41,316 nucleotides of DNA from an uncultured Pseudomonadota bacterium (GTDB taxonomy: Bacteria > Pseudomonadota > Gammaproteobacteria > Steroidobacterales > Steroidobacteraceae), in assembly GCA_903908265.1 (NCBI GenBank), contig CAIVRI010000077.1:1-41316 (forward strand), in the 5' to 3' direction. The first letter of the stretch is position 1; every line of letters starts with the position of its first letter. The translations under genes were made by a program, and so were the position numbers. Shown in pieces: positions 39,809-41,316 of this stretch. The notes beneath the pieces are model-generated. The model did no database searches. It saw only the letters and a program-made list of their open reading frames with translations, and had not been told where the DNA came from.

Positions 39809-40957
39809 TCACCGCGACAGCAGCTCGATGTAAGGTTGGTAGCTGTAGCTGCGATTCTTCTTCTGGCCGGTCATTTCCATCACGATGTCCAGGTCTTCCA
39901 GTACTTTGACGGCGGCAGTGGCGGTCGGAAAGGTGGTTTCCAGTTTTTGCCGCACACGCTCGATGGTGAAGCGCGGCATCATGGGCAGCAACTCGAACAG
40001 CCGGTAGCTGGCGGGGCTGGCCCTGGGTGCTTCGAGCAGGCGGCGCCGATCCGCCGCTATCAGGCTGGCGACGGCGATGATGCTGCGTTCAGCGTCACTG
40101 GCGGCCGTCGCCACGCCTTCAAGGAAGAACGCGACCCAGGATTCCCAGTCGCCTTCGGTGCGGATGATCGACAGGCGCCGGTAGTACTCGGCCTGATACT
40201 GCTTCAGGTAACCGCTGACGTACATCAGCGGTTCCACCAGCAATCTCCAATGTTCCAGCAGTGCGGCGATCAGCAAGCGCCCAATGCGACCATTGCCATC
40301 AAGGAACGGGTGGATGGTTTCAAACTGGGCGTGTGCCAGCGCGATCCTAACCAGCGGCGGCAGCGTGCCTGCCTTGTCGTGAATGAATTGCTCCAGGTCG
40401 CCCAGCAGATCTACCACCCGGTCGGCCGGCGGCGGCACGAAAGCGGCGTTGCCCGGACGGGTGCCGCCGATCCAGTTCTGAGAGCGACGCAGTTCCCCGG
40501 GCTGCTTCCCGGCAACTCGCACCCCTTCCAGCAGGATACGGTGGGCCTCACACAGGAGGCGCACGCTGATGGGCAGCCCGTTGGGGTCGCGCAGGTTGTC
40601 CTGCACCCGTCGAAAGGCGCGCAGATAGTTGGTGACTTCCTCGACATCGTCCGTGTTGCTGACGGCGAAACCTGCTTCCTCGTCGAACAGATCGGTCAAT
40701 GTCGCCTGGGTACCTTCGATTTGTGAGGTAAGCAGGGCTTCCTTACGGATCGCGCTGTACAGCAGCCAGTCTACCGACGGCACCAGCCCGGACACCCCGG
40801 ACAGGCGGGCGAGCGCCAGCTCTGCCTGATGATTCAGGTCGGCATACGCCTCTGGGGCCAGTTCAGGGTTGCTGGGCGGCAGGGGATGCGGGACGAAGGC
40901 CCGAACCGGTTCGCCCTGCGTGGTCGAAATGGCGTAAGTGCCCGTGGTCCGCTTCAT
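39809..40957 (-). CDS. Fic-family AMPylase/nucleotidyltransferase (class II)
   Basis: The protein is 382 aa. Residues 15-100 are a Fic_N-type region with the inhibitory helix T77-S-Q-I-E-G82 ([S/T]xxxE[G/N]); Glu81 would block the gamma-phosphate of ATP. The Fic core has the full active motif H216-P-F-L-D-G-N-G-R-I-G-R (HxFx[D/E]GNGRxxR), so AMP transfer to a target hydroxyl is expected. NWIGG and AFVPPP form the target flap. Residues about 315-382 (FTIERVRQKLETTFPTATAA, VLEDLDIVMEMTGQ) look like a winged helix, as in SoFic-type proteins, and could bind DNA. ATG 40957 has no Shine-Dalgarno; a palindromic site abuts it instead. The target is unknown. It lies beside an integrase relic, which suggests acquisition. 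Confidence 0.93.
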   Translation of the reverse strand: MKRTTGTYAISTTQGEPVRAFVPHPLPPSNPELAPEAYADLNHQAELALARLSGVSGLVPSVDWLLYSAIRKEALLTSQIEGTQATLTDLFDEEAGFAVSNTDDVEEVTNYLRAFRRVQDNLRDPNGLPISVRLLCEAHRILLEGVRVAGKQPGELRRSQNWIGGTRPGNAAFVPPPADRVVDLLGDLEQFIHDKAGTLPPLVRIALAHAQFETIHPFLDGNGRIGRLLIAALLEHWRLLVEPLMYVSGYLKQYQAEYYRRLSIIRTEGDWESWVAFFLEGVATAASDAERSIIAVASLIAADRRRLLEAPRASPASYRLFELLPMMPRFTIERVRQKLETTFPTATAAVKVLEDLDIVMEMTGQKKNRSYSYQPYIELLSR

Positions 40958-41037
40958 GATAAAGGCATCTTTAATGTGAGCTTGTAGAATTAAAGCATTC
41001 TTTAATATTAAGCGCCAGCATTAAAGCAGCCTTTGAT
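40958..41037. promoter_or_regulatory. Three palindromes AAAG-N4-CTTT at an exact 31-bp period upstream of fic
   Basis: AAAG-N4-CTTT cores lie at 40961-40972, 40992-41003 and 41023-41034, with centres 40966.5, 40997.5 and 41028.5. Flanks extend the best copy to ATTAAAGCATTCTTTAAT (40989-41006, perfect seven-base arms), and the third to ATTAAAGCAGCCTTTGAT. The spacing equals three helical turns, so all sites face the same side of the DNA. The first copy covers the place where a ribosome site for fic should be. An operator array for the winged helix of Fic itself, or for a linked regulator, is inferred. Confidence 0.6.
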
Positions 41038-41079: not shown

Positions 41080-41316
41080 TTACAGTTGCCGCGCGCAGCG
41101 GGTGATGGGGCTGCGGTAGCCATGGATGGCGCGCATCAGGGCACCTACGGCCTTGGGGTCCACCAGGGCGGCCCGCGGCTTGGTCTTCACGGCTGTGAGC
41201 ACCTCGCGTGCCTGAATGTCTGCCACGGGGTTCCGGTTCATCTGGCCCGTCTGAACGCCGTAGCCGAAGATGCGCCGCAGCAGTTGGGCCAGTCGCCGAG
41301 CAGTCTCCGCCCGCCC
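41080..41316 (-). pseudogene. Truncated P4-type tyrosine integrase (runs off the right edge)
   Basis: The minus-strand frame from the window end to TAA 41080 (78 codons, no start inside) reads TARRLAQLLRRIFGYGVQTG, QMNRNPVADIQAREVL, KPRAALVDPKAVGALMRAI and HGYRSPITRCARQL, then stop. This is the core-binding (SAM-like) domain of P4/DUF4102-type integrases. In intact relatives the sequence continues (TRxALxLxPL) into the catalytic domain with the R-H-R-Y residues, none of which is present. The gene is therefore cut before its active site. The 5' part lies beyond the window. It marks the scar of an integrated element next to fic. Confidence 0.8.

Follow-up and report, generated by a model that had tools for sequence, protein, structure and literature searches.

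The question raised by this locus is what role three short palindromes at regular distances in front of a fic gene play, and which protein binds them. We address it in the window, i.e., the whole stretch of 41,316 bases that was analysed, which is identical to contig C77 and ends about 280 bases past the box array. The features discussed below are collected in Table 1.

Table 1. Features of fic and of the box array, with positions in the window
Feature	Position	Strand	Basis or remark
fic, 382 aa	39809..40957	-	Fic_N, Fic and predicted C-terminal winged helix; SoFic-type class II AMPylase by sequence
Predicted winged-helix codons (about residues 314-381)	39815..40018	-	AlphaFold model
Predicted recognition-helix codons (residues 343-355)	39893..39931	-	AlphaFold model; operator covariation over residues 341-353
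Catalytic Fic motif HPFLDGNGRIGR, residues 216-227	40277..40312	-	Sequence
Inhibitory motif T-S-Q-I-E-G, residues 77-82	40712..40729	-	Sequence; class II Fic, N-terminal
Box 3 (nearest to the start codon)	40961..40972	none	AAAG-N4-CTTT, 3 bp before the fic ATG, over the expected ribosome site
Box 2 (middle)	40992..41003	none	Within the perfect 18-bp palindrome ATTAAAG-N4-CTTTAAT (40989-41006)
Box 1 (farthest from the start codon)	41023..41034	none	AAAG-N4-CTTT

An exact search for AAAG-N4-CTTT in the 41316 bases of the window yields three matches, namely the boxes of the array, and no others, with box starts that are exactly 31 bp apart. Dinucleotide shuffling of the window produces on average 0.16 matches, and none of 100 shuffled sequences reached three. 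The gap between box 3 and the fic ATG (40957, minus strand) is 3 bp, such that this box covers the place where a Shine-Dalgarno sequence is expected. Both the triple with its exact 31-bp spacing and its reach to the fic start, where a ribosome site should be, had been described in the initial annotation and are confirmed here. In the longer ATTAAAG-N4-CTTTAAT form, boxes 1 and 3 are perfect on the side that faces box 2 only. When the pattern TTAAAG-N4-CTTTAA is searched with at most one mismatch, the array boxes are the sole sites in the window's 3.4 Mb genome, and if two mismatches are allowed, fewer sites are obtained than with the control pattern (24 vs 64). That is, the window's genome holds no second site or array, which rules out a general host regulon there.

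Judged by its sequence, the protein encoded next to the array is a class II AMPylase. Its Fic domain is matched by Pfam PF02661 at 9.7e-20, Fic_N is matched by Pfam as well, and HPFLDGNGRIGR agrees with the motif HxFx(D/E)GNGRxxR. Within this catalytic motif, H216, P217, D220-R224, G226 and R227 are invariant among 47 aligned sequences. The inhibitory motif of class II Fic proteins is defined as (S/T)xxxE(G/N); TSQIEG (residues 77-82) has this form, and its S78, E81 and G82 are likewise invariant among 47 aligned sequences. Similar inhibitory motifs appear in the excerpts on CbFic2 (PMC10628234) and CccR (PMC9755527) on which we draw. With regard to the subfamily, the PADLOC SoFic model matches residues 17-381 at 1.1e-110, and solved SoFic chains align by sequence to residues 23-380 or 44-380. 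The NCBIfam SoFic equivalog cut-off is missed with 142 bits vs 550, and we therefore treat the protein as a SoFic relative for which the equivalog is not established.

The AlphaFold model of the protein (47 sequences, mean pLDDT 93) contains helices at residues 315-326, 332-339, 343-355 and 374-381 and strands at 329-331 and 370-372. Given this order of helices and strands, the C-terminal domain is named a winged helix as a prediction; a Pfam search for an HTH in the window's Fic gave no match. The model thus supports the winged-helix-like C-terminal end that had been proposed from the sequence.

We next consider how far the array is kept among relatives. Matches to fic at E <= 1e-60 occur in 74 of the 369 genomes of the class, and of 572 loci encoding a relative, the best 80 named ones were kept. 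Among the 113 loci compared, 82 had at least 60% identity and at least 150 upstream bases; two identical ones were dropped, which leaves 80 regions. Of these, 78 were anchored on box 2, leaving out L109 (best protein segment from residue 76) and L101 (edge). Boxes 1 and 3 were scored as the best of seven offsets, in letters of 8.

In these regions, which are anchored on box 2, that box is present at 7/8 or better in 75/78 cases, while 6/8 or better is reached by box 1 in 67/78 and by box 3 in 73/78. All three boxes show at least 6/8 in 63/78 regions and at least 7/8 in 44/78. As background, 2.5% of 1120 farther-upstream windows from the same regions reach 6/8, again as the best of seven. Where box 1 scores at least 6, its distance to box 2 is 31 in 61/67 and 30 in 6/67 regions; for box 3 at the same score, the distance to box 2 is 31 in 56/73, 30 in 15 and another value in 2. 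The spacers between the boxes are weakly conserved. The comparison of regions upstream of fic homologues, suggested along with the initial annotation, was thereby carried out: the AAAG-N4-CTTT boxes are kept, nearly always 30-31 bp apart. The exact triple at 31-bp pitch is found in 9/229 fic loci, i.e., most homologues keep the array with one or more mismatches. In the main clade, the boxes are mostly located at about -77/-46/-15 relative to the start codon. Inverted repeats near the start (p <= 0.05) are observed in 64/84 homologues with at least 60% identity, in 24/51 with 45-60% and in 42/83 below 45%, compared to 14, 7 and 15, respectively, when the same test is applied farther upstream.

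In cellular genomes, the array is also almost restricted to fic. Exact double boxes at 30-31 bp occur at 8 places in 6/369 genomes, compared to 3 places for the reversed control pattern. Seven of the eight are directly upstream of fic (5/6 without those of the window), i.e., two in the window, four in three further genomes as judged by coordinates, and one in genome G036. In the latter (contigs C37 and C11; L185 and L007), the fic reading that follows the array stops by eye after 12 codons, and another contig carries the greater part of a fic gene, beginning at residue 17. The remaining double box, the sole one away from fic in the 369 genomes, is at positions 1501-1542 of locus L184 (genome G256) inside a 141-codon reading frame, and we take it as chance. 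The surroundings of L184 look by eye like an integron cassette array.

Together with the conservation among homologues, the specificity in the 369 genomes supports the idea of a conserved, operator-like array tied to fic. Chance repeats are ruled out for the window and its orthologues by the shuffles, the genome scan, the conservation and the double-box specificity. Single extended boxes elsewhere in 12 genomes, however, are found near control level, which counts against autorepression. The same applies to viral contigs, where at least 120 loci (L188-L307) contain an exact double box and a Fic relative is found in 1/120 of the listed ones (L269, 51% identity). These listed loci are AT-rich (median GC 0.41) and show the exact triple in 0/120 cases, such that most of their double boxes are tentatively taken as chance.

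To describe the spacing across the whole family, 226 full-length homologues were grouped at 75% identity into 85 representatives; L007, where fic has no start, is part of the 226 sequences but not of the representatives. For each, the 120 bases before the start codon were compared with base-shuffled sequences. Averaged over the 85 representatives, we observe a repeat at lag 31 (z 10.8) and at lag 41 (z 14.7). Lags 30, 40 and 42 belong to these peaks, and the next highest values are found at lags 46 (3.9) and 18 (3.0), while control stretches from farther upstream (n=83) reach 1.6 at lag 31 and 0.8 at lag 41. Distances of 31 and 41 bp correspond to about three and four DNA turns, which makes the second pitch longer by roughly one B-DNA turn. 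The 18 representatives with at least 48% identity, from which L326 was left out since it is placed elsewhere on the tree, peak at lags 31 and 62. For the 66 representatives below 48%, the peak is at lag 41 (15.4), and the value at lag 31 is much lower (3.7). Considered individually, the repeat is significant (0.05) in 23/85 representatives vs 10/83 control stretches. We count this against autorepression, and the statement on the repeat thus concerns the family average. The tree labels, assigned with a loose cut-off (p up to 0.12), were not relied on.

Some relatives combine the same pitch with different box sequences. On viral contigs, eight homologues with about 50% identity have upstream regions to which AGTAAAG-N4-CTTTACT-type boxes can be fitted with 17 to 23 of 24 letters in a search for which the pitch was set to 31; at this preset pitch, the first box is located at -81 in 8/8 examined members of the 50% clade. 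The respective loci are L311, L312, L314, L316-L318, L320 and L354. Boxes similar to AAACGATCGTTT, with a best lag of 31, are found in L315 and L358, both on viral contigs; L352, a viral contig from the L358 cluster, looks like L358. Further clusters, which represent other Fic lineages, have operators of their own, i.e., of GGAAAGGATCCTTT type in the L326 cluster (13 loci) and of CCTTTAATAA/TTATTAAAGG type in the L335 cluster (12 loci), and in both the half-site geometry is unlike that of the window.

Given this diversity of boxes, we related operator sequence to protein sequence, using the 46 of 85 representatives that show an operator signal and defining the protein body by the identity of residues 18-300. 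The operator correlates with the recognition helix when the body is accounted for (partial Mantel r=0.219, p=0.0005), while no such relation is seen between operator and body given the recognition helix (r=0.007, p=0.45). For the whole winged helix, the correlation is r=0.277 (p=0.0007). When far-upstream arms replace the operator as a control in the helix test, r=-0.03 results (p=0.74). A scan with 62 overlapping protein windows yields a mean r of 0.156 for the 10 windows from residue 308 or later vs 0.009 for the other 52 (nominal p 1e-5). Due to overlapping windows and shared ancestry, the p-values of this covariation analysis are to be read as nominal. The comparison of sequences indicates that the operator tracks the winged helix and not overall protein identity. 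With protein identity held constant, this covariation lends support to the autoregulation that had been suspected from the layout.

Protein windows outside the winged helix correlate as well, i.e., those at residue 55 (about 55-67; 0.23), 187 (0.18) and 1 (0.16), which we count against autorepression. A simple rule that pairs an FPT-type helix with TTAAAG half-sites was tried and fails among the representatives (5 versus 72, p=0.29, not significant); for all sequences the association is modest (12 versus 127, p=0.015).

Concerning the neighbourhood of fic, no flanking frame of at least 35 codons is common to more than 10/86 homologous loci (at least 60% identity; flank lengths differ). An HsdS-like frame is found in 10/86 loci and an HsdR-like frame in 10/86, with either in 14 and both in 6 (L057, L060, L071, L073, L107, L154), which is a defence arrangement that recurs. 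Examples of these frames are assigned to Methylase_S and HSDR_N by Pfam. Among the longest flanking frames, HSDR_N occurs in 8/80 downstream and Methylase_S in 4/76 upstream, which places some fic copies within a type I restriction cluster. In this set of longest frames flanking fic, no regulator family is seen more than once, and the candidate of a widely common neighbouring regulator was rejected, none being found among these frames. The scanned neighbours in the window itself are transport and metabolic genes, not defence genes.

Based on these sequence comparisons, we consider the three boxes to be a candidate operator of fic with Fic as its own repressor, a reading to which we assign a probability of about 0.77. 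Fic dimers would bind the array via their winged helices. Neighbouring sites, about three turns apart, would be on the same face of the DNA, which would let bound dimers touch. Occupancy from about -80 to the start codon would block RNA polymerase and possibly ribosome loading, and the blocked expression would hold a dangerous AMPylase at a set, low amount. Synthesis of Fic would rise once free Fic drops or Fic is drawn off the array. Such autorepression agrees with the reports on Sofic, which describe an anti-phage role by abortive infection and problems with leaky expression. On the other hand, a search for a sigma-70 promoter in the window's upstream stretch, array included, gave no match, and the relatives show a weak -35-like signal next to box 2 (29 vs 20 of 78). 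Both observations count against autorepression, and in view of them we do not claim a promoter position.

Other explanations have to be weighed against this reading. Since covariation fits any binding by Fic and not repression alone, the array might mainly control the enzyme, i.e., as proposed for CbFic2, a DNA-bound Fic dimer would have altered activity and the boxes would act as parking site or sensor, with transcription control being secondary. The array overlaps the start region, yet no promoter was recognised, and for CbFic2 the excerpted report states that binding of DNA via the HTH stimulates and switches the activity (PMC10628234). We nevertheless consider enzyme control unlikely as the main function: the near-fixed place of the array before the start codon is the one required for an operator acting on transcription or translation, and three sites would hold very few Fic molecules. 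The boxes might also be bound by a different regulator, conserved in the hosts or encoded elsewhere, that represses fic. AT-rich palindromes of the AAAG-N4-CTTT form are generally suited to many wHTH, MarR or TetR proteins, and the regulator survey covered the longest frames beside fic. Such a regulator is nonetheless quite improbable, given that the window's genome has no second extended-box site within one mismatch, that double boxes are nearly confined to fic in the 369 genomes, that no widely common frame flanks fic, and that, across hosts, the operators vary along with the winged helix of Fic itself. Finally, the repeats could be what is left of a mobile element or of a recombination site that travels with fic and has no regulatory role, which would agree with the fic homologues on plasmids and viral contigs and with the contig end shortly past the array. 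However, the box bases are kept while the spacers are weakly conserved. Furthermore, the box sequence changes together with the winged helix at a constant pitch in the 31-bp clade, which is not expected of a passive remnant, and we regard this origin as very improbable.

A further alternative concerns the way in which dimers would be placed on the boxes and is compatible with autorepression rather than exclusive of it. A Fic dimer might bridge the half-sites of neighbouring boxes (CTTTAAT-N13-ATTAAAG), such that three boxes would carry two bridging dimers in a chain; we see this geometry as a tentative possibility. Within the main clade, conservation is higher for the half-sites that face box 2, with an information content of 9.0 vs 6.3 bits for box 1 and 9.1 vs 7.8 for box 3, and in a thinned set (n=60) the bias of inner vs outer half-sites has p=5.5e-4 for box 1 and p=1.9e-6 for box 3. 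Bridging would also resemble CccR, for which the excerpts give a distance of 26 bp between the two arms and of about 70 angstrom between the DNA-binding helices (PMC9755527). However, the start codon, too, constrains the outer half of box 3, and it may just be that the middle box is the strongest one. For the clade at 50% identity, the right half of box 2 is best or tied in 8/8 loci and the left half of box 1 in 7/8, where two of the eight loci (L311 and L314) are near copies. That is, the best half-sites of this clade are not the two inner ones of boxes 1 and 2. With the main clade in favour and the 50% clade against, a uniform bridging-dimer geometry was rejected.

Autorepression by a Fic protein is already known from CccR of Yersinia pseudotuberculosis (PMC9755527), where, in the excerpts used here, a reporter rises 3.3-fold without CccR and CccR protects AGATAATCAT-N26-ATGATAATCT. 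Like the window's Fic, CccR belongs to class II and has an inhibitory helix and a C-terminal DNA-binding domain, the latter being predicted in our case. It is a dimer that binds inverted repeats in its own promoter, and fic in the window has inverted repeats upstream as well. The CccR operator measures 46 nt and is made up of a single pair of 10-bp arms on either side of a 26-bp spacer. From this, the window's array differs in its sequence, in its three short-spaced palindromes at 31 bp and in the SoFic-type gene that it precedes. CccR is moreover a T6SS effector, unlike the SoFic-type Fic of the window, and the two are likened by description (PMC9755527). The initial claim that no operator of such a form is known for Fic proteins has to be corrected in that a Fic operator as such, of a different form, has already been published.

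For the toxic and dimeric Sofic of E. coli, which has an inhibitory helix and a C-terminal domain as the window's Fic does, the parts of the report considered state that the wild-type gene was uncloneable behind a single lac operator (PMC12249575); a need for tight control agrees with this finding. The operators mentioned there are the lac operators of the cloning vector, an antitoxin gene, AS1, is located downstream of Sofic in E. coli H397, and the activation mechanism is called elusive (PMC12249575). CbFic2 of Coxiella burnetii shares the N-terminal inhibitory helix and has a DNA-binding C-terminal winged helix, which for the window is a prediction. The report on it presents this DNA binding as nonspecific for the most part and coupled to the activity of the enzyme, and the terms operator, inverted repeat and own promoter are absent from the part of the text examined (PMC10628234). 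Repeated inverted repeats before the own operon are also the targets of AbiEi and Rv2827c, which are antitoxin autorepressors (PMC7319586). There, the repressor is a separate antitoxin, while in our reading of the window it would be the toxin itself, and the repeats are 23 bp long with a spacing other than that of the window. According to the same excerpts, AbiEi shows positive and Rv2827c negative cooperativity (PMC7319586), which is a warning against assuming positive cooperativity in the window's array.

Within the partial coverage of the literature, including parts of PMC9755527, PMC10628234, PMC12249575 and PMC12894286, the phased triple array, the 31/41 bp pitches and the covariation of operator and helix are undescribed. 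A conserved self-operator would allow for a direct test of how SoFic-type toxins stay harmless before infection. For such work, the homologues supply natural variants of operator and helix as matched pairs in one set, and the 31 vs 41 bp pitch is a testable constraint on dimer packing. More speculatively, and with little probability in our view, anti-phage toxins that join Fic to a winged helix might generally use lineage-own operators at three- or four-turn pitch, each read by the own recognition helix. An inactive Fic chain stored on the array would then be released when a phage attacks or remodels the host DNA, which would at once free the toxin and derepress its gene.

Two minor observations concern the surroundings of fic. 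A frame on the minus strand at 41081-41314, truncated where the contig ends, stops about 45 bp short of the array. It has no match in Pfam, PDB sequences or plasmids, and by eye it presumably looks like the core-binding region of a tyrosine integrase. Citrobacter plasmids, whose fic DNA gave no match in the ecoli_genomes collection at blastn sensitivity, carry a fic homologue of 64% identity, which in the one record examined is located beside a relaxase gene.
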